This document shows positions 2,102 to 20,703 of a stretch of DNA of 25,301 nt, piece after piece. This stretch comes from Hamiltosporidium magnivora. Lineage: Eukaryota; Microsporidia; Dubosqiidae. The translations under genes and the position numbers were made by a program. The stretch spans positions 1 to 25,301 of the forward strand of contig PITI01000076.1 of NCBI GenBank assembly GCA_004325065.1. The letters are read 5' to 3'. The notes under the pieces are model-generated. The model was not told the DNA's origin, did not search any database, and worked only from the letters and a program-made list of their open reading frames with translations. Within the stretch, counting starts at the first letter, position 1, and every line of letters starts with the position of its first letter.

Positions 2102-3661
2102 ATGTTTTATAAAAAACAATTGCTTAGTTTTATATATTTGCTGTGTTCTGTTCTAAGTAAAAAGAAAAAGAGAGTATTAAACAAAATACAAGGATCAAGA
2201 GAAGTTGATATATCATGTGACGATGATAATACTGCACATATTGTATATTGCAATGTTTTTGCGTATTTGATAGAACATGCGATATATTATGAACCACGGC
2301 TAGAAGCGTTTTTCGAATATTCTAGGAACTTCTTAAATAAAAGCCACGAGGAATCAAATATAATTGCCGTATTAAATATCCGTTATAGTATTGAAAAAGT
2401 CACAAAAAACCATTATTCGGAACATGCATTATATAAATCATATTATCTTGAGCGTTTAAGAATGAGCAAAAATGATATATTATGGTTATACTTAGAGTTG
2501 GTACATTTAACTCACCGTGACCGAAATGAATGGTCAAAGTCTAAAAAGTTTTTAGAAGATTCACTTAAAGATTGCCTTGTTAAATATCCGATAGATGTAG
2601 CATTAGGCGGTAAAATTTTGAGCCGAACACCAATAAACCCAAAAAGAAAAATGAATAAAATTAACGAGATAATTAAAGCTATTTCAGAGAATAAAGAATT
2701 AGAAAAATTCATATTTGTTCAATTTGCGATTTTTTTTGTGTCTTTTTTTTCACAGGTCAATAATGGAGTTCTTGGGTTTTCACCGCTTTCTCGTATTCTC
2801 GGTTCTAGTGAATTAAGTGAAGCACGTAAAGAGAATATAAAATCAGAAGTGTATTTTAAATCAATTAGGAATATTTATTATGCTAAAAATTGGAATTATC
2901 CGCAAAATTTGTTTGAGAACAACTACAAGGATATCGATGAATGTGAAATGAATGCAATTATAAGAAATGGATTATTTGGATTCCAGAAATCTCTTTTTAG
3001 AGGGTTTAAGATTCCTTTTGACTTGTGCAATCAGTCTATGATGAGCATTTATTCTAGCTATTATTCACGGTTGGTGTTAAACAATGATTTTTTGAATTGC
3101 ATATTTCCAGGATTTAATATCTTTTTTAGTGAAACCGAAATGCCTAGTTTTGATTTTTTAAATATGTCAAGGAGAATCAATATGACTGTTATTCTTCAAT
3201 CAGAGCCCTCATTAGTGGTTTTCTTGGGATATTTCATCAAAAAAGTCGATGAAAAATATTTTTATAAAATCTTTGTTGCAAAAGATACATCTGAAAAGAA
3301 ATCTCAGCTTAGAAAATTGATAGATGGTGTTTTTAAAGCAATAAAAAAAATAGAACCATTATATAAAGAAATATCAATTGGTCTTTACAATAAATTGATC
3401 AATATTTCAGTTGATGTTCATATTACTTTTGTTTTATATAAATTAGATTCCAAACTCTTCCAGTTCTTGGAAAACGAATTATTGAAGAATATAAAATCCG
3501 AAAATTTAAAGCAGAAAGTAAAAAACGAAATATTTGGCAATTCTGAGATATTTAATGTTTTTTTCGATTTATATAAGACATGTTTCTTAGAATCGACGGA
3601 TACATTAAAAACATTAAAGCATGTAAAAGAAGTCGAGTTTAAAGATTTGCCTAATGAATAA
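2102..3661 (+). CDS. Putative secreted, lineage-specific paralogous protein (copy 1)
   Basis: This encodes 519 aa with no family I recognise. Residues 1-19 (KKQ, then a hydrophobic run LLSFIYLLCSVLS) look like a signal peptide. A strongly basic patch KKKKRVLNK follows at residues 20-28. The rest is rich in Lys, Phe, Ile and Asn, with no obvious membrane segment beyond a hydrophobic patch near residues 205-217. It is a paralogue of the product of 13501-15051. The first 32 residues are identical, the region around 75-180 is poorly conserved, and better blocks return later: NAI.NGL.GF.K (284-296), FK.PFD (302-307), DVHI.F..YKLD (438-449), FFDLYK (487-492). The ATG is fixed by the shared start in the paralogue. 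A secreted effector or surface protein is plausible for a parasite but is inference. Confidence 0.85.
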   Translation: MFYKKQLLSFIYLLCSVLSKKKKRVLNKIQGSREVDISCDDDNTAHIVYCNVFAYLIEHAIYYEPRLEAFFEYSRNFLNKSHEESNIIAVLNIRYSIEKVTKNHYSEHALYKSYYLERLRMSKNDILWLYLELVHLTHRDRNEWSKSKKFLEDSLKDCLVKYPIDVALGGKILSRTPINPKRKMNKINEIIKAISENKELEKFIFVQFAIFFVSFFSQVNNGVLGFSPLSRILGSSELSEARKENIKSEVYFKSIRNIYYAKNWNYPQNLFENNYKDIDECEMNAIIRNGLFGFQKSLFRGFKIPFDLCNQSMMSIYSSYYSRLVLNNDFLNCIFPGFNIFFSETEMPSFDFLNMSRRINMTVILQSEPSLVVFLGYFIKKVDEKYFYKIFVAKDTSEKKSQLRKLIDGVFKAIKKIEPLYKEISIGLYNKLINISVDVHITFVLYKLDSKLFQFLENELLKNIKSENLKQKVKNEIFGNSEIFNVFFDLYKTCFLESTDTLKTLKHVKEVEFKDLPNE

Positions 3662-5640: not shown

Positions 5641-6656
5641 ATATTTTCTAATAATGACAATCTTATGAAAACAACCATTGGGGTAATATAAAAGAATTTA
5701 TCCTCCCCCGCTAGACTAAGGATGTGATCTAGAAACTGCTAAAATATCATGAATCTTCACTGATAATCTGAACTGCAGCTTAAAATTCTTAAGAATTTAT
5801 TTGACTTAACGTTTCGAAATCTTTGTTGTTTCTTATATTTTTAGTATTTCTTTAGAAGCGTTATTTCAGTTTGGTAACAACAATATGTTAGATTTAGCTT
5901 TCTTTTCCTTTTAAAATTTCCCATAAATTGGGTTGAAATGATAAAATACAGGTATTGACTGCAAGATATTGATTTTTACTCACTTTCCATTTCGAAATGC
6001 TATTTTTTTGATTATTTGCAAGGATAACGTAATATTAAATTTACCAATTATTCCTATAAATAACCCAATACTACTCATCTTTAAGTTATTTACTACATGT
6101 AAAATCTTATAATTGTTTTATAAATAATATTGCAGAATGTTTTGGATATGAACTTACTCAAATTAGATGGTTTCTTTTTTAGATTTTGCTTTTTTGCTTT
6201 CAAAACCTATGCGAAGCAAGAAATGTTGTGTAATCATTCTCTAACTACCTTGGATGTCACATTCAATGTATAAATTCATATTTATTGGTTTGCTTTTTTT
6301 TCTCCTTTTTTTGATAAACTTTCTTTTCATATAAAATAAATGTATGTAACTGTATGCACAATAATGTAAATTATAAAAACAGTAGCGAAAAAAGTCTCGA
6401 ACAACATATTTAAATACCGGAAAGTATCAGTGATTGTTAAAAGAGTCGAAATATCAAATCAAATTTCTAAAAAGTTCTAGATTCTAAGGGAAATTGACAT
6501 AATCACAAAAGTTTCTTGAATCTATTCTATGATCAAAAGACTTTAGTATTATAAATACTTCGTTGAAATTTCCACTTGGCTAACTTCGGTATTTCAAGTT
6601 GTGTAATCTCTTTCGGTTCATAAAAATAGACTCTTATTAACATTCAACGCTAATCT
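5641..6656. other. AT-rich intergenic stretch, no gene seen
   Basis: No frame longer than a few dozen codons and no recognisable motif. It separates the Merlin remnant from a broken gene that starts near 6657. Confidence 0.35.
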
Positions 6657-8153
6657 ATGCAACAAATCATATATTTAAAGCCGAACCCATATGTGGAGTT
6701 TGCCCATATAGGAAACAAAAGATTATTTTTTTTAAAACCCTTCATAAATAAGTTTTTATTATATTAAAAATCTTGATTCTATTTATCTTCTGCTGAAATT
6801 CCAATTAGATTAAAATAATGTTTTATTTATATAGTCTTTAGAGGAGAATTTTTGCAAGAATAAAATTTAATGAAGATCGTTTTAACCATGTTAAAATAAA
6901 ATTGATAAAACAATACCTAGCGGATAGAAATAAAGCCCTTCTGGTTTATCTTTCACGATAAAAAGAATTTTTTTAGAAAAAACAACGACTAAGAGTTAAC
7001 AAACGAAAAACTGTGTTATAGAGAAAGCGATAACTTTCATAAAGAGGCAGTTGCTTAAGACTATTTTAAAACAAAAAGCTATATTTGATTCTCTTTACAT
7101 ACCTGATCACAAAAAAATTAAGGCGATGCATGAACACCCTAAATCTCTATTCATAGGATTTAACGGTTAATTAATCAACGAATATATCTCGAAATATATA
7201 ACCTGCAAGAAATTTTATCTTTTAAGCTGGAATTCGCAAGTTATACCCATCATTTCGCGACATTTGTAACATATTGTGAAGATGAATTGCGTTGATTTAA
7301 GAAATTATAATAAGGAAAATAACAATATAGATAGATTGTGAACATTTTGGATTGCTATTCTAAATTTTCGTTTCATTTGCATTAAAAGATAAAAAAGCCA
7401 AACATCATGTCTGCTTTAAAAAATATTTAAATACAAAGGCACTCCGATTGTTGTACAGAGCGAATACGGCAGAGAATCTAACAATTCATTGTTTTGGAAT
7501 TTCTAAATTTATCTAATGTTAGGCTTGGGAGAAAAACCAAGGCATCACCAGAATCAAGGACAGGTAAAAATAGTAGATCAAAAAGTAGTACGAGAACACC
7601 AAAGCTCTTATTTATCTAAAAAAATAAGTTGAAAATACATGATAATATTGTATTTGAATACGATATATCATGAGAAGACTAATAAACATTCCCTAAATCC
7701 TGGCATTTAGAAGTCAAATGGCTATAAATATATTGCATTACCCAGTCAATACAACAGATTTAGGTGAATTTGTAATTTAATATAAAAAAAACCACATATT
7801 GAATATAATATAGAAATTATTGAAGAAACAAACTTTATATCATTTATAGTAACCTTGAATTGCAGTTCACTATTTAGGTCACAAAAGAGTTAATATAAAC
7901 TATAGAGACATTTATAGTTCTAAATTTTAAAGATGCTGATGTTTATTGCCACCGTTTCGCATTAAATTCAGGGGACTGGTTTTTATTCAAAGATCTTTTT
8001 ATACAAATAAATTGACCCAAAAAAAACAAAATATATAGTTTGAATGAAGAAGAACCTGGATTATTTTTTCATATAGCTTGCTCTGACAGTTTTAGAGTCT
8101 GTGATGAAAACGATCCTGGCAATCTAAAATTTATCTCTAAAAACAGACTATAA
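6657..8153 (+). pseudogene. Broken, unrecognised protein-coding gene
   Basis: A chain of protein-like segments on the + strand can be followed through stops and frame changes. An ATG at 6657 opens MQQIIYLKPNPYVEFAHIGN and about 20 more codons. Next come segments near 6840-6960 (including FNEDRFNHVKIKLIKQYLAD) and 7020-7170 (including KAITFIKRQLLKTILKQKAI). Further segments lie near 7170-7290 (including LEFASYTHHFATFVTYCEDE) and 7385-7520 (including ALRLLYRANTAENLTIHCFG). The last frame is open from 7899 to 8153 with one internal TGA at 8013-8015 (including DADVYCHRFALNSGDWFLF). The segments are helical and lysine-rich in style. I do not recognise the family, and they do not obviously match the secreted paralogues. 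Exact ends and number of lesions are uncertain. Confidence 0.5.
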
Positions 8154-8290
8154 AAAACAAAAACGTAAACAGGGCTTTCACCTGTCGTTTATTCTTCATA
8201 TTATCATTTTTTTACTCTTTTTATATTTTATTATCTTGTTTCTCATTTTTTTTTGAAGTTTGTTTTATCTTATTTTTCGATAATTTATTA

Positions 8291-8320
8291 CTCCCTCCGT
8301 CCGGTAATATGGTATACATT
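8291..8320. repeat. Left terminal inverted repeat of the mariner-type element
   Basis: It starts CTCCCTCCGTCCGG and matches the inverted right end at 28 of 30 positions. It is immediately preceded by TA. Confidence 0.93.
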
Positions 8321-8335
8321 TTAGCGATTTTTTTT

Positions 8336-8360
8336 GTCCGGAAAAATGGTATATATTTTT
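8336..8360. repeat. Subterminal copy of the left TIR motif
   Basis: GTCCGGAAAAATGGTATATA repeats the pattern of 8300-8318 (GTCCGGTAATATGGTATAC) in the same orientation, about 37 bp further in. It is probably an internal transposase-binding repeat or a partial end duplication. No matching second copy was obvious near the right end. Confidence 0.5.
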
Positions 8361-8558
8361 GAAAAAATAAAATAAATCAAAAAATGTACATGACAAGTTA
8401 ATTATATTACCTTTATTTGAAACATTTTAATAAATATTAATCTAAATAGTAAATAAAATTTAAAAAAATAAATATTAATATTAATAAGTTCACTCGAAAT
8501 TTGATTTGGCTTTATTGTATGCTTCTTTGGAACATACATATTTTTCTAGCTCATGACC

Positions 8559-9825
8559 TTAGAGACGAGGTTTTCCTTTACTTAAATGAGGTATTTTATA
8601 GCCATTTCCTCCATCTGCTAACATAATTGACTCCATACATGTTTGCAATGTTGTAAAAACGTTATCGAGAGTATTCGCTTGTAATCGATGAAATGCATCT
8701 TGAACACAATTTATTAATTCGTCAATTGTGTATGGCGAAACCTTATACTGCAGCGATTGTATGGAGTTGAAAAAAACCTAAATCGAGAACATTTAAATCA
8801 AGGCTATTTGCCGGTTGCGCCTTAATTTGTATATTCCAGTCATCAGCAGAACCAAGATCGAAAATATCTGCATCATTATCAGAAAAATGGGTTTTTGCAT
8901 TGTCTTGTTGTACGTACATTGTTTTCTTTTTGTATGCTGGCGGAAATTTAGATTTAATTGCGGAAATTACATTATCAATGATGATTTTTTTACAATGTAT
9001 TGCTGTAACAGATTCCACATTTTTTGTTATTATTGTCCCTTTAGCCCTGTTCTTAGAATTTATTTGAGCTGGTTCTTGATAAACAAATAGCCATATTCCA
9101 ATTTTCCCATCAAAATAATGCTCTCGATGTTCATCCTAGCGCGGTTGACCCTCTGCAGCCCTGAAATTTATTTTTGTAATAAATGGCTTTCTTTTGCAGT
9201 TTCTATCCGGTTTTTCTTCGTTTAACATTAAGTAATAAGGGCGCTTAACTTTAGTTAGATAAAACCACTTTTCAGCAATGTGAACGCAATCGTACAAATC
9301 ATCAAAAAGAAAATCTCTATTATTAGCAAGATTTACTTTAGAAGCAAAATTTCAATCTGTCTATTTTATTTTTATCTGTTAAAGTTGGTTTAACTGTAGA
9401 AAATATTTTTTTGCTATACTTTCCCTATTTGAATATATCAAACAAAATTGATTTTGGAATATCAATTGCAAAGGAAAGACTGCGAAGCGTTCCTCGACGA
9501 TTTAATGGTGTATTCTTTATTTGCGCTAAATTGTTCGAATAATCTTTAGGTTTTCTTCCGCATCTTTTTTTCATTTTTAAAAAAACATCGGCACATATCA
9601 TATCCTTTCTGTATTGAGTTTGTGCTGCATGCCAAATTCTGCTAACGTTTAGCCGGGAAACTTGAAAGGCAGAAGAAACTTCGTTTATGGCACCGTGTTT
9701 TAACCCATTCTCCTTCATCTGCTGTAATAATTTTTCTAAAATACCTGACGTTGTTCTTTAGTTAACTGTTTATATTTTGAATCTTTTCTTTCTAAATTTA
9801 ACAAATTTCTTTCCACATTTTCCAT
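8559..9825 (-). pseudogene. Broken DD39D mariner-like transposase
   Basis: It would cut and paste the surrounding element. Reading from an ATG at 9825-9823, an N-terminal segment (QLTKEQRQVF) is followed by a helix-turn-helix region (9718-9425; FQVSRLNVSRIWHAA, CGRKPKDY, PLNRRGTLRSL). Then comes VHIAEKWF with downstream FDGKIGIW, and next YVQQDNAKTH with NSLDLNVLDLGFF. Between the second Asp (QQD) and the last Asp (VLD) there are exactly 39 residues, the DD39D spacing of plant-type mariners. The C-terminal end GGNGYKIPH also fits and stops at 8559-8561. Lesions: in-frame stops at 9425-9427 and 9136-9138; frameshifts near 9736, near 9345 and in a 7-A run at 8770-8776. The first catalytic Asp is Ala (GCT, 9276-9274). 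The protein is certainly inactive. Confidence 0.92.
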
Positions 9826-13430: not shown

Positions 13431-13500
13431 CTGGTTATAAATGTCATATTTAGTAAATATGTTCGTTCTTTATTTATATTTTTTAAATTTCATCCTAGCC

Positions 13501-15051
13501 ATGTTTTATAAAAAACAATTGCTGAGTTTTATATATTTGCTGTGTTCTGTTCTAAGTAAAAAGAAAAAGAGAGTATTAAACAAAATACAAGGATCAAAAG
13601 AAGTTAATACATCATGTGACGATAATAATACCGTTCATATTTATTTCCAAAACACACCCAAATGTATGATGAATTGTGCCATATATTATGAGCCACGATT
13701 AGAAGCGTTTTTTAAAATTTCCAGAGAATTTTTCGATAATAGCTCACATACGAAAACAATGAATCAAGCTTTAAATAATCTCAAGACTGAAATCATAAAA
13801 GGTGAAAAAATCTTCTATACGACTCATGAAATATATGTGATGCATTATAAGAACTGTCTAGATGTGTTTGAAGGTAAGTTATTAGGCCTGTTTGAGAGTT
13901 GGGTACCTTTGAGACTTCCCGAAAAATCGACTATAATAAAGATGCTAGGCTCTATCAAAAGCTCATTGAAAAGCCAAAATTCAATAAGCAAACTAAATGC
14001 TGATGAAACATTGAATGAAATAAAACTTGTCTCGAATAAAAACTCCAAAAAAATGATTGAAATATTCAAAGGGATTTTAGAAAACAAAAATTTCGAACAA
14101 TTTGTTTTTTACCAACTCACTCTTTTTTATGATTACTTTTTTTCCTTGAAAATTTTACCTTGTAGTGATTTTTTAACAATAGACTACATGCTTCATTCGA
14201 AAAAATTGCCGAGTATAGATGAAGAGGCCATAAGATCTGCAACATATTTAAAGGAAATTAAAGAGGTTTATTGTGCAAATAAATGGAATTATTCGCTTTA
14301 TGAAATAAAAAAAGAAAGCGAAGCTATTGGTATCAGCGAGAAAAATAGCGCTATATCAAACGGATTATCAGGATTTAGAAAATACATTTTTAGAGATTTC
14401 AAATTTCCTTTTGATAGTGAAAGATCTTCCACATTAGGCATTCTGAATCGAGAGAAGTCAATAATATTTTTTAACAATGAATTTCCTGATTATATATTTC
14501 CCGATAAAAATATTTTTCCTAGCGATCCGGTGATTCCAGATTTTGGAACTTTAAATAAATTTAAGAGGGCAAATATTAGTATAATTTTAGAATCAGAATA
14601 TTTGATAATCATCTTTATAAAAGATTATATCGAAAAATTCGGAGAAGAGTGTTTTTATTTGAATTTTAGCCTGGAAAATATTTTTAACGAAAATTCGGAA
14701 AATAGAAAAATTTTAAACAATGTCTTTTCTTCAATTCAAAAAATAGAACCAATAAATAGTGAAATATCTGAAAATCTTTATATTACATTATCTCATATTA
14801 CAGTGGATGTTCACATTGCCTTTGCATTTTATAAATTGGATACAAGACTCTTTTCTTTTGTTCAAAATGAAATATTGTCAGTCATAAACTCTTCAGACTT
14901 AAAAGAAAAAGTAAAAGAGAAAATTTTTATTCATCCGGATATATATTATGTCTTTTTTGATTTATATAAGTTATGCTTTAAAAAAGCAACAATTAAATAT
15001 AAAGCTTTGAGGCAAATCAAAGATATCAGCTTCATGGATTTGAGTGGTTAA
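13501..15051 (+). CDS. Putative secreted, lineage-specific paralogous protein (copy 2)
   Basis: This encodes 516 aa from the ATG at 13501. An in-frame ATG at 13441 would add 20 residues, but the paralogue starts exactly at MFYKKQLL, and the two genes share GCC directly before this ATG and near-equal lengths (519 aa). The signal-peptide-like start and KKKKRVLNK patch are identical to copy 1, and the first 105 nt differ at about one position. Identity then falls sharply, apart from EPRLEAFF near residue 65 and a better conserved second half (NGL.GF.K, FPFD, DVHIAF.FYKLD, VFFDLYK). There is no recognised domain. The pattern suggests an expanded, fast-evolving secreted family whose leader is preserved by selection or gene conversion. 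Export from the parasite is an inference. Confidence 0.85.
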   Translation: MFYKKQLLSFIYLLCSVLSKKKKRVLNKIQGSKEVNTSCDDNNTVHIYFQNTPKCMMNCAIYYEPRLEAFFKISREFFDNSSHTKTMNQALNNLKTEIIKGEKIFYTTHEIYVMHYKNCLDVFEGKLLGLFESWVPLRLPEKSTIIKMLGSIKSSLKSQNSISKLNADETLNEIKLVSNKNSKKMIEIFKGILENKNFEQFVFYQLTLFYDYFFSLKILPCSDFLTIDYMLHSKKLPSIDEEAIRSATYLKEIKEVYCANKWNYSLYEIKKESEAIGISEKNSAISNGLSGFRKYIFRDFKFPFDSERSSTLGILNREKSIIFFNNEFPDYIFPDKNIFPSDPVIPDFGTLNKFKRANISIILESEYLIIIFIKDYIEKFGEECFYLNFSLENIFNENSENRKILNNVFSSIQKIEPINSEISENLYITLSHITVDVHIAFAFYKLDTRLFSFVQNEILSVINSSDLKEKVKEKIFIHPDIYYVFFDLYKLCFKKATIKYKALRQIKDISFMDLSG

Positions 15052-17807: not shown

Positions 17808-17985
17808 TAAATTATGAAAAATAAAATTATGAAAAATAAAATAATAAAAGACAAAATAATAAAAGACAAAATCATGAAAAATAAAATCATGAAATACAAA
17901 ATCATATAAAATCATGAAAATAAAGATTAAGAAATGTAAAAATATATGAATAAAAATAATAAAAAACAAAAATTATAAAATGTAA
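17808..17985. repeat. Low-complexity tandem repeat, period about 15 bp
   Basis: An A-rich unit of the form AAAATMATGAAAAAT or AAAATAATAAAAGAC is reiterated about a dozen times with variation, directly 3' of the NF-YA gene's stop codon. It is probably slippage-generated; it may lie in the 3' untranslated region. Confidence 0.7.
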
Positions 17986-18003
17986 ATTTCTTTATTTTTC
18001 TAT

Positions 18004-18663
18004 TTATAAATTACCATTATTTTTCATTCTCTGTTCTGCTGCTTCTTCTTTCGTTAGAAAACGACCCGATGGTGCTCTTAATCTATTCATTGCATGTCTA
18101 TGTCTACTTTCATGTAAATAGCCAGCTTTATTTTTAGTCTTCATTAAAGAATCTAAATAATCTCTTCTAAGTTTTCTTTTCTTAATAGTATTATATTGAT
18201 GTACGTTTACGTATAGAGGCTGTTCTCCATTTCCTTCAAAAAGAAAAGAATTTTCAAAATTCGTATAATATTGGTCGGGAGTAAAATATTTTATATCCGG
18301 GTTGTTCTTTCCTTGTGCATCGTAGGGATATTCGTTTTCTCTGTAAGTATAAGGAATTGGATATTCCTGTCGTTTATCGTCTTGAAATTCTGTCCTGTAT
18401 TTATTAAAATCTTCTGGCCGGTGAGAAAATTCTTGTCTTTTGTCTTCGGAATAATTTTGTCTAAATTTATACGGATCTTCTCGCATTTGAAACAAAATGT
18501 CCCGAGAATTTGTATGTGTATCTCCTTCATACTTGCTTTGTAACATATTTCGTGTATCTTTGTATATTTCTGGTGGTGTGCCTAATGGATTACCGTATCT
18601 ATCGATAAGTATTTTGGGATTTTCGTCGTTTTGCATTGTTTTACTCTTTTTGATATCTTTCAT
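18004..18663 (-). CDS. CCAAT-binding transcription factor subunit NF-YA (HAP2/CBF-B)
   Basis: This is the sequence-specific subunit of the trimeric NF-Y/HAP complex, which joins the NF-YB/NF-YC histone-fold dimer and binds CCAAT in the nucleus. The protein is 219 aa from the ATG at 18663. The conserved core lies at the C-terminus. The subunit-association helix is at residues 148-174 (QPLYVNVHQYNTIKKRKLRR). After a short linker comes the DNA-binding part at about 181-202 (YLHESRHRHAMNRLRAPSGR), with the hallmark HESRHRHAM and GGRF-like SGRF. The N-terminal 145 residues are charged and Tyr/Glu-rich, with a short internal repeat (DKRQEF, DKRQEY), not the Gln-rich domain of animal proteins. The frame extends upstream only with a TTG, so the ATG at 18663 is preferred; another ATG lies at 18636. 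It lies in tandem with the Cdc20/Cdh1 gene. Confidence 0.93.
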   Translation of the reverse strand: MKDIKKSKTMQNDENPKILIDRYGNPLGTPPEIYKDTRNMLQSKYEGDTHTNSRDILFQMREDPYKFRQNYSEDKRQEFSHRPEDFNKYRTEFQDDKRQEYPIPYTYRENEYPYDAQGKNNPDIKYFTPDQYYTNFENSFLFEGNGEQPLYVNVHQYNTIKKRKLRRDYLDSLMKTKNKAGYLHESRHRHAMNRLRAPSGRFLTKEEAAEQRMKNNGNL

Positions 18664-18743
18664 CTTGTTTTTATATTTTTTGTTATTTTCTTTTGTGAAA
18701 TTGTGTTTCAAAATCGATTATGGTGGTTTATCGTTGGACTTTT

Positions 18744-18748
18744 ATTGG
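18744..18748 (-). promoter_or_regulatory. CCAAT box upstream of NF-YA
   Basis: CCAAT on the - strand, in the context TCTCCAATAAAAG, sits 81 bp upstream of the chosen NF-YA start. As NF-YA is the subunit that reads CCAAT, autoregulation is conceivable. A single 5-bp word can occur by chance. Confidence 0.3.
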
Positions 18749-18802
18749 AGAAAAAAAAGGAGAAAAGAATGATAAGAAGACGAGTAGAATATAATATTAA
18801 AA

Positions 18803-19173
18803 GGGGTGTTAATTGATTGATCTATTACACAGTGTTAAAGGGGATATAAAATAAAGGGTAGTACAATAAAATGTAAGGGGTGTTAATCATAGTAATAGTA
18901 TTTTAAGGGTAAGAGGTGTTAGTATTAACAGTATTATTTGAAAGGGTAATGGGTGTTAGTCATAGTAATAGTATTTTAGGGGTAAGAGGTGTTAATCTTA
19001 CTATTAGTATTTTTTAAGGTAAGAGGTGTTAATCATAGTAATAGTATTTTTTAAGGTAAGAGGTGTTAATCATAGTAATAGTATTTTTAAGGGTAAGCTT
19101 AAAGAATAGTCTTTAAAGATAGAAAGTGTTAAATTAAAGAAAATATTTACAATTAGTAAAAGGGGTGTTAAAC
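18803..19173 (+). repeat. GGTGTTAA tandem array (array A), period 37 bp
   Basis: The core (A)AGRGGTGTTAAT recurs with starts near 18875, 18911, 18948, 18984, 19021 and 19058, so successive spacings are 36-37 bp. The text between cores is also repeated (CATAGTAATAGTATTTT). Outlying cores lie at 18803, 18833, 19125 and 19161. On the - strand, the sense strand of the adjacent NF-YA gene, the core reads TTAACACCYCTT. It lies between the NF-YA start and array B. CCC/GGG-type signals close to start codons are known in microsporidia, but a phased array is not something I know of. Confidence 0.9.
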
Positions 19174-19203
19174 AAATAAATCTCCTTTTATAATATGTCG
19201 ATT

Positions 19204-19626
19204 ATTAACACCCCTTTAATTTAAAATACATAATCAAAACCATTATCGTGACAGAAATGACATGTTTTAAAAAAAATAGTCTTAATTAAAAAAGGGGTGT
19301 TATTAGAAAGAGGATAGAATTGGAATTTCATAATAATAACACCTCTTAAAACAAAGTATTTTTAACACTCTTTATTTACAGTAAATATTATCTTTTAACC
19401 AACACCCTTTATTTATGATGAAATATTATACTGTAACCAACACCCTTTATTTATACTGAAATATTATCTTTTAATCAACACCCTTTATTTACAGTAAATA
19501 TTGTCTACTAATTAACACCCTTTGTTTACAGTAAAATATTCTACTATAATTAACACCTATTAAAATAGTATATTTTTAACACCCTTTATTTACACTTTAC
19601 CTTATACTCTATTTAACACCCCTTTA
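19204..19626 (-). repeat. AACACCC tandem array (array B), inverted relative to array A
   Basis: The core AACACCCTTTATTTA recurs with AACAC starting at 19338, 19364, 19401, 19439, 19477, 19514, 19552, 19578 and 19615. Spacings are 37-38 bp, with two of 26 bp. An AACACCCC copy at 19207 and one inverted copy at about 19293 lie near the centre. The spacer often contains AGTAAATATT. The core is the reverse complement of array A's, so the two arrays form a long, imperfect inverted repeat centred near 19190. The last unit ends about 25 bp before the Cdc20/Cdh1 stop codon. Confidence 0.9.
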
Positions 19627-19650
19627 TTTCCCTATAATTTCCTTAAAAAT

Positions 19651-20703
19651 TTACCTTAAATAAGAAAAAGATTCATGCTCAAAATTTTCTTCCGCCTTCC
19701 AAAATGTAAGAATATTATCAGAAGAACCCGTAACAAAATATTTTTCATCCTTTGAAACTGAAAAATGAATAACCCTATTTTTATGACCATAAAATATTTT
19801 TTTTACTCTTAAAGTTGGTGCCTGTGAAATTCTAGCATCGTTCTGTGAATATCCATGTGTACTTATAACTGTATTATTTCTTGTCCAATACAAATTACAT
19901 ATTTGAGAATTATAATCTACTGTTTTGACAGGTGAATTATTTATATTCATAGTGTCCCACATTTTAATACTTTTATCTGCTGTTCCACCCCCACTTAAAA
20001 GTAAAGAAGGTTTTATTGGTGACCATGCTATTGCTTTTACAGCTGCTTTATGTTCGGTGTATTTGTGAAAATAATTATTTAAATTTCTTGTATCGTAAAC
20101 AAATAATTTGTTATCATTTCCTCCTGAAGCTATAAATTTTTTGTTTTTACTTATTTTTAAACCACAGACTTCTTGTTGGTGAAAAGTTAAAACATCTGGA
20201 CTGTCTTCTATTCTTATATCCATATTTTTAATTGTTCTATCTCTACTGCCTGTAATTATTCTATTTTCGTCCCATTCTATTACTCCTATCCTAGATTTGT
20301 GTTGTTGGTAATTTTGTATTTTTTGAGTTGAAATATCTAAAATATTTAAAATTCCTGTTGAAGTACCAATAGCTACGGTATTTCCCTTATCATTAAATTT
20401 TACTGAAGTAACCATCAAACCATTTAAAGAATATAAAAGTGTATTTTTTGAAGAATAATAATTAAAAAGGTAAATTCTGTTTTCTACAGCATAAAGAATA
20501 TAATTGTCTGACCAATCTACCAAATTAGAATAAAAATCATCTGCTAGTCCTGGTACTGTTAGTTTACGAAGTGGTTGTGTATAAATTTTAGGTTCCTTAA
20601 GGGATTCCTTATAGTTGATAAGAATATCAGTGTTTGGTGGATTTTCTTTGGTAAAAAATTCTATGCACGAAAATCTGTTGAATTTTTTTGAGTTTCTGTG
20701 CAT
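19651..20703 (-). CDS. Cdc20/Cdh1 (Fizzy) family WD40 activator of the anaphase-promoting complex
   Basis: This protein recruits substrates to the APC/C ubiquitin ligase to drive mitotic exit. It has 350 aa, shorter than the usual 450-600, because the N-terminal region is cut to about 48 residues. The family entry motif PGLADDFYSNLVDWS (51-65) opens a WD40 propeller. Characteristic blocks follow: SGGNDNKLFVYDTRN (193-207), LLSGGGTADKSIKMWD (235-250), STHGYSQN (281-288) and GHKNRVIHFSVS...VTGSSDN.LTFWK (306-336). The N-terminal C-box (normally DRFIP) survives at best as NRFSC (9-13). The C-terminus ends in Leu-Arg where the family has the APC/C-binding Ile-Arg tail. The segment after STHGYSQN is shorter than usual. 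Whether it acts as Cdc20, Cdh1 or both cannot be told. The ATG at 20703 is the only good start. Confidence 0.93.
   Translation of the reverse strand: MHRNSKKFNRFSCIEFFTKENPPNTDILINYKESLKEPKIYTQPLRKLTVPGLADDFYSNLVDWSDNYILYAVENRIYLFNYYSSKNTLLYSLNGLMVTSVKFNDKGNTVAIGTSTGILNILDISTQKIQNYQQHKSRIGVIEWDENRIITGSRDRTIKNMDIRIEDSPDVLTFHQQEVCGLKISKNKKFIASGGNDNKLFVYDTRNLNNYFHKYTEHKAAVKAIAWSPIKPSLLLSGGGTADKSIKMWDTMNINNSPVKTVDYNSQICNLYWTRNNTVISTHGYSQNDARISQAPTLRVKKIFYGHKNRVIHFSVSKDEKYFVTGSSDNILTFWKAEENFEHESFSYLR

Follow-up and report, generated by a model that had tools for sequence, protein, structure and literature searches.

What fills the space between the NF-YA and Cdc20/Cdh1 genes of Hamiltosporidium magnivora, and does it belong to these two genes or to something wider in the genome? 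We addressed this question in a window of 25,301 nucleotides, the whole stretch of DNA analysed, which is contig C76 of the searched draft assembly (10.74 Mb, 644 contigs). Most of the about 1 kb from the NF-YA start (18663) to the Cdc20 stop (19651) consists of arrays of the short word AACACC, or GGTGTT when read on the other strand. The genes and the parts of the array are listed below.

18004..18663, minus strand: NF-YA (CBFB_NFYA) gene, first ATG at 18663 (PF02045, E 3.3e-21)
18801..19169, minus strand: left half, eight exact GGTGTT cores (AACACC on the minus strand), mostly 36-37 bp apart, pointing to the NF-YA start
19207..19212, plus strand: lone AACACC core where the two halves join
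19296..19301, minus strand: lone GGTGTT core past the junction of the halves
19338..19626, plus strand: right half, eight exact AACACC cores, mostly 37-38 bp apart, with AACACT at 19364, pointing to the Cdc20 3' end
19651..20703, minus strand: Cdc20/Cdh1-type WD40 gene (PF24807, E 3.6e-96)
Exact GGTGTT starts: 18805, 18879, 18915, 18952, 18988, 19025, 19062, 19164, 19296
Exact AACACC starts: 19207, 19338, 19401, 19439, 19477, 19514, 19552, 19578, 19615

Structure of the array between NF-YA and Cdc20/Cdh1

An earlier note on this DNA had seen about ten cores on each side. The arrays are present, and we counted nine exact cores of each kind, GGTGTT and AACACC, between 18801 and 19626, mostly with steps of 36-38 bp, plus degenerate ones. 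There are eighteen exact cores in 824 bp, whereas 2000 dinucleotide shuffles averaged 0.56 and never exceeded 5. The steps between GGTGTT cores are 74, 36, 37, 36, 37, 37, and then 102 and 132 bp; those between AACACC cores are 131, 63, 38, 38, 37, 38, 26 and 37 bp. Steps of 37-38 bp, some of 26 bp and one of 63 bp were thus as claimed, and the 63-bp step of the right half can be read as 26+37 because a degenerate AACACT sits inside it at 19364. TRF alone recovers a 37-bp array at 18869-19097 and a 38-bp array at 19364-19540, the head-to-tail arrangement of units of roughly 10-100 bp that is typical of a minisatellite. The edge of the left cluster is 141 bp from the NF-YA ATG, and the edge of the right cluster is 30 bp from the Cdc20 stop.

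The two halves had been described as imperfect inverted copies that meet near 19190. The core is indeed inverted, but there is no clean meeting point, because plus and minus cores interleave between 19164 and 19338. When the cores were masked, one half aligned to the reverse complement of the other with a local score of 41, compared with a shuffle mean of 31.9 and maximum of 43; 7 of 200 shuffles reached this score. The halves appear to be inverted copies mainly in the core, and the inverted-copy model is marginal after core masking.

A near-identical second copy of the locus was found on contig C572, with 11 differences over about 3.8 kb, of which one (18848) falls in the array. The Cdc20-type protein is 100% identical to a Hamiltosporidium magnivora record, and the organism is accordingly this microsporidian of Daphnia (water fleas) or a near-identical relative. 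A scan of 18000-20400 gave no RNA family at the gathering threshold.

Other features of the window were noted in passing. A 15-bp tandem repeat (6.5 copies, 17809-17905) follows closely on the 3' end of NF-YA; its consensus does not resemble the array units. The plus-strand ORFs 2102-3661 and 13441-15051 (519 and 536 aa) are alike in sequence and look like a lineage-specific paralogous family; a Pfam scan of ORF 2102-3661 gave no match. ORF 9425-9718 has a DUF7769 match just under threshold (26.3 bits, cut-off 27) and is perhaps a transposase remnant.

The core word defines a dispersed family

To place the locus in its genome, we searched the assembly for the word itself. AACACC pairs 22-46 bp apart (16-40 bases between cores) were found 563 times (266 forward, 297 reverse), compared with 29 (15, 14) in the reversed control; among the pairs listed, a few come from other repeats. 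The longer word AACACCCYTT occurs 416 times (191 + 225) vs 48 (24 + 24) for the reversed control, and among the matches listed (first contigs) these places are mostly clustered by eye. Of the 13-base forms, TAACACCCTTTTA gave 50 vs 0 and TAACACCCCTTTA 118 vs 1. The core common to the sampled arrays is T-AACACCC-Y-N-TT-W-A, about 12 bp, with mostly array-specific spacers.

We also compared units of two length classes, taken from among the matches listed, with near-duplicates and odd units dropped by eye. In the units of 37-39 bp (72 from 22 arrays), T precedes the core in 97%, C7 is present in 88%, T or C comes next and T10 is present in 85%; these conserved positions lay outside the search pattern, and the spacers share little between arrays. 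In the units of 29-31 bp (67 from 26 arrays), for which C7 belonged to the search pattern, T precedes the core in 85%. Some spacer signal is common to this class (A16 in 87%), which may reflect shared descent of part of the group.

Clusters were defined as at least three cores, counted per strand, and the second copy on C572 was excluded from the step, cluster and orientation counts. Up to 19 core copies occur in one cluster. When steps of 16-60 bp were counted, those in the other noncoding arrays ranged from 23 to 60 bp. The steps peak at 29-30 and 37-38 bp, and further ones fall at 26-28, 35-36 and 39-42 bp. The earlier note had proposed that the steps phase bound proteins on the DNA helix. 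This proposal is unsupported because the sampled noncoding arrays use many different steps; at 10.5 bp per turn the two peaks correspond to about 2.8 and 3.6 turns, and circular statistics are uninformative with steps that form two clumps.

One line of evidence was set aside. Head-to-head GGTGTT..AACACC pairs numbered 60 vs 4 in each direction, and many of the matches listed are copies of a dispersed 41-bp sequence. This sequence, GGTGTTGGTTCCTC through AACACC, recurs in many contigs and is probably part of a mobile element.

Arrays of the word occur in frame inside conserved proteins

ORFs also contain in-frame repeats of the word, on either strand and in several frames. Among steps of 16-60 bp, 95 of 99 in coding clusters are divisible by 3, vs 103 of 264 in noncoding clusters (Fisher p 6e-26, steps taken as independent). 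The sample comprises 22 coding and 57 noncoding clusters, a split that is not a genome-wide proportion because the loci were mostly picked for holding arrays. The coding unit is mostly 27-60 bp. The ORFs to which a domain or a likeness could be assigned are as follows.

C65: in-frame array in a PI3/PI4 kinase ORF (Pfam)
C15: in-frame array in a ubiquitin hydrolase ORF with zf-UBP and UCH (Pfam)
C55: in-frame array in an alpha/beta hydrolase ORF (Pfam of the H. tvaerminnensis counterpart)
C437: array-bearing ORF, myosin-like (by eye only)
C322: array-bearing ORF, TOG-type (by eye only)

In seven ORF-bearing loci, the frames of the 7-base word were NT- 42 times (mostly NTP or NTL), GV 44 times, QHP 13 times and RVL or GVL 5 times, and each of the two remaining frames occurred once. 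At the protein level only, like repeats were found in named records with histone deacetylase, TGT, CPSF A, helicase, Myb and UBA_E1_SCCH domains. When a single repeat-rich protein of H. magnivora was used as query, 26 proteins including itself were retrieved, all 26 named Hamiltosporidium; other lineages were possibly missed, since this search needs shared words and similar length. Copies are present both between genes and within genes that encode conserved proteins, which suggests that it is the word in the DNA that is copied or kept.

Chaperonin genes served as a sample of conserved genes. They gave seven matches, and none of the six long ORFs examined carries the repeats; therefore, the arrays are not present in every conserved gene. 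On C174, five AACACC cores (locus positions 1225-1357) adjoin a chaperonin-family match, outside the matched region, and were excluded from the orientation counts.

A search of the assembly did not find the HDAC and TGT domains that proteins of the sister species carry. The assembly matches to these two proteins were ruled out as genes, as they match only through repeats, and therefore the genes themselves are probably missing. Three copies of TTAGGG in a row likewise had no match in the 644 contigs. Since these three were not found, the assembly is probably incomplete. Kinship of the arrays with telomeres was rejected on this null result and on the telomere repeat of H. tvaerminnensis, published as TTAGGG (PMC10542269).

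The arrays gain and lose units

Residues 108-226 of the hydrolase (about 119) are missing or nearly so in five other proteins of the family, from three named microsporidia, one entry labelled as a louse contaminant and one without an organism name. The H. tvaerminnensis array lacks two ten-residue units. Between the two species, 5 of 98 aligned array residues differ, with 21 gap columns, and 1 of 372 residues differs in the flanks, with 3 gap columns. In the repeat tract of another protein, two H. magnivora records are separated by a 24-residue gap. Repeat number is thus variable in the family in these two proteins; the array of the window and its copy on C572 have equal repeat number and length.

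On C297 (6700-7800), QQGV and QHPV units alternate by eye in the same frame, corresponding to AACAGGGTGTT and its reverse complement AACACCCTGTT. The alternation points to flipping in place of an 11-bp near-palindrome, or to reuse of the duplex word either way.

Sampled noncoding arrays mostly point at neighbouring genes

Among the intergenic arrays sampled, most have the AACACC strand directed at the adjacent gene, regardless of the direction of that gene. A noncoding array lies within 250 bp of 36 ORF ends, and 32 of these are pointed at, comprising 15/15 starts and 17/21 ends. A sense bias had been predicted ahead of its data; the toward-gene rule was formed on a first set of loci (22/26) and then tested on a new batch, in which it held for 10/10 ends (two-sided p 0.002 if ends are independent, which ends sharing one array are not). 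This hold-out was chosen from listings that showed the core strand, not the genes; C71, C248 and C297 also have first-set loci. The 250-bp count leaves out ORFs below 100 aa and ends without a noncoding cluster (at least three cores) within that distance, and the ORF calls are intron-free and were made in this analysis. It was devised after a count by nearest ORF on both sides, which gave 18 arrays toward, 2 away and 18 one-sided or ORF-less in the first set, and 5, 0 and 14, respectively, in the hold-out.

The order seen in the window, minus and then plus between two called ORFs, was also found on C45 and C150, in the first set with C76, and, in the hold-out, on C411. On C362 the order is also minus and then plus, with a called ORF at just one of the two sides; C389 has mixed minus and plus clusters and likewise an ORF on a single side. 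The counted exceptions, on C19, C72, C151 and C270, are all 3' ends that are pointed away from; on C19, C72 and C270 the array has a plus-strand ORF on each side and fits the downstream start. Below the 100-aa threshold, further exceptions would be a 98-aa ORF on C387 and an S17-like gene (by eye) on C71. Beyond 250 bp, the minus-strand ORF starts on C113 (325 bp) and C248 (581 bp) are pointed away from. The earlier note had taken ordinary dispersed copies with no positional bias as the finding that would speak against it; a dispersed family was found, but it is not free of bias, being biased in orientation.

The polarity at starts and ends has different relations to known signals

The start signals described in microsporidia, CCC-like and GGG-like, lie immediately before the start codon (Peyretaillade et al. 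2009, PMC2803860). We tested array-free ORF starts for the CCC-like signal, which the array core had been suggested to extend. CCC occurs within 40 bp upstream of 12/21 such starts, compared with a null mean of 2.2 and maximum of 8 (2000 shuffles), and 11 starts in loci not selected for arrays have 13 CCC vs 1 GGG on the coding strand. Because CCC precedes ordinary starts on the coding strand, the 5' polarity of the arrays fits the known CCC-like signal. The likeness of the core is partial. The core contains CCC and its orientation fits at all 15 starts, where the arrays stand 24-230 bp away from the ATG; array-free starts seldom or never have the longer word, as [AT]CCC[CT]T[TA] occurs at 5/21 (antisense 0/21), ACCC[CT]T at 2/21 (antisense 2/21) and AACACC within 40 bp at 0/21. 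The suggested likeness is partly supported, and beyond CCC it is limited.

The published signal and the array core are alike as C-rich words on the coding strand upstream of starts, the core having CCC followed by C or T. They differ in that the signal is not described in tandem in the available part of that report (PMC2803860), whereas the array word is longer, reaches 19 copies per cluster and also lies after and within genes.

At 30 ORF ends we counted 2 CCC and 21 GGG. The G runs after stops are confined to array-bearing neighbourhoods, with 21 in 20 ends near arrays vs 0 in 10 ends elsewhere, and a general 3' G-run signal was rejected. Therefore, no general 3' signal explains the 3' polarity, which belongs to the array family.

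Explanations of the array family

Taken together, the family can safely be described, from its sequence, as an unstable minisatellite family with a DNA-level core, gene-oriented when noncoding, in frame when coding, and found here only in Hamiltosporidium. We tentatively favour, with a probability of roughly 0.45, the reading that the locus is a member of this family and that the word is kept as multiple copies for the factor that recognizes the start signal. The right part of the word partly resembles the CCC-like signal, so the word is possibly start-signal-like, and it would be kept because the CCC start-signal factor would bind it in multiple copies. A multi-site promoter would then result where an array adjoins a gene start. 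An array adjoining a gene end would recruit the same factor for antisense transcription or form a border against transcription leaving the gene. Arrays gain and lose units and sit between genes, mostly pointing inward from either end, and in frame within coding regions.

The strongest rival to a functional reading is a site at which duplication starts. The minisatellite would be selfish or neutral, and the core would be kept only as a break, nick or slippage site; units that lost it would cease multiplying, and polarity would follow from the strand asymmetry of transcription or replication during growth. This is a real possibility, at odds somewhat below even. It agrees with the growth of the word whether the DNA is coding or not, in several frames and on either strand, with spacers that are mostly array-specific, with tracts that vary between species and between the two H. 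magnivora records, and with the alternation on C297, read by eye as an 11-bp core flipped in place. By itself, however, it does not predict sense arrays at 15/15 starts or the 10/10 hold-out. Transcription-driven growth should also bias coding arrays, but the coding clusters are 11 sense and 11 antisense. Because of this balance, a purely transcription-driven expansion is disfavoured, and a strong directional transcription barrier is unlikely.

A device specific to NF-YA or Cdc20 (promoter, enhancer or insulator) would suit arrays that occupy most of the intergenic space and a left half that aims at the NF-YA start. The dispersed family mostly refutes it: many other ORFs have arrays of this core, which flank them 5' or 3' or lie within them, and the earlier proposal of a promoter or enhancer block for NF-YA is therefore unsupported. 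We consider any such specific device very improbable. Equally improbable are repeats at or near the ends of a transposable element, whether foldback, MITE or CACTA-like. Transposase-binding subterminal repeats do resemble inverted arrays of a short motif, and an array of the same core lies on C20 (about 6400-8850) within what looks by eye like a decayed retroelement. However, dispersed near-identical copies with inverted ends, as expected of a MITE or foldback element, were not seen: the 824-bp sequence used as query matched this locus and one near-identical copy, at least seven other matches (seven of nine, counts being lower bounds) were partial at 69-73% identity, and the halves are alike mainly in the core. 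In-frame arrays with multiple-of-3 steps are not element ends either. Phased repeats also occur at some centromere, origin or segregation elements, and the earlier note had raised a replication or segregation element and asked whether arrays sit once per contig. More than one array lies on several sampled contigs (C72, C86, C248, C389), so these give no evidence for an element present once per chromosome, and some arrays lie within ORFs. We consider this explanation very improbable as well.

Relation to known repeats

Human hypervariable minisatellites have a common short core and an unstable repeat number. The arrays described here share with them the conserved short core, array-specific spacers and unstable repeat number, but are also found in frame in conserved genes and oriented to gene ends. 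Rickettsia palindromic elements, in which a single palindromic unit is carried in frame inside proteins, are likewise repeated DNA within proteins; here, in contrast, the units stand in tandem clusters. PARCELs are tandem, variable-number in-frame repeats whose DNA has dyad symmetry (PMC2996958). As described in the available part of their report, they form a 25-residue motif in ORFs without assigned functions from distant taxa, whereas the coding unit here is mostly 27-60 bp and occurs in ORFs with known domains, was found only in one genus, and has matching noncoding arrays.

A close precedent comes from Octosporea bayeri, now H. tvaerminnensis, in which short tandem repeats were reported in 1,345 contigs, together with in-frame insertions in conserved proteins that are kept in mRNA according to RT-PCR (Corradi et al. 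2009, PMC2784321). These insertions are like the arrays here in being in frame within conserved proteins; the available part of that report gives no common DNA word and no link between insertions and intergenic arrays (PMC2784321). Neither the shared DNA word nor the polarity turned up in our literature searches, mainly of openly available papers.

Implications for Hamiltosporidium

One DNA word could tie the short tandem repeats to the unexplained in-frame insertions of this large-genome microsporidian genus. The orientation rule makes it testable whether the growth of the repeats is selfish, steered by transcription, or steering transcription. A stronger version of the start-signal reading, which we think unlikely, is that a start-signal-derived word was amplified into convergent arrays around genes and spread in frame into proteins, as a gene-border code read by one factor. 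If this were true, the word of one DNA-binding factor would now also shape the proteome. For annotation, the family carries a warning: a long Asn/Gln-rich repeat in a conserved enzyme of Hamiltosporidium can be a minisatellite that is translated.
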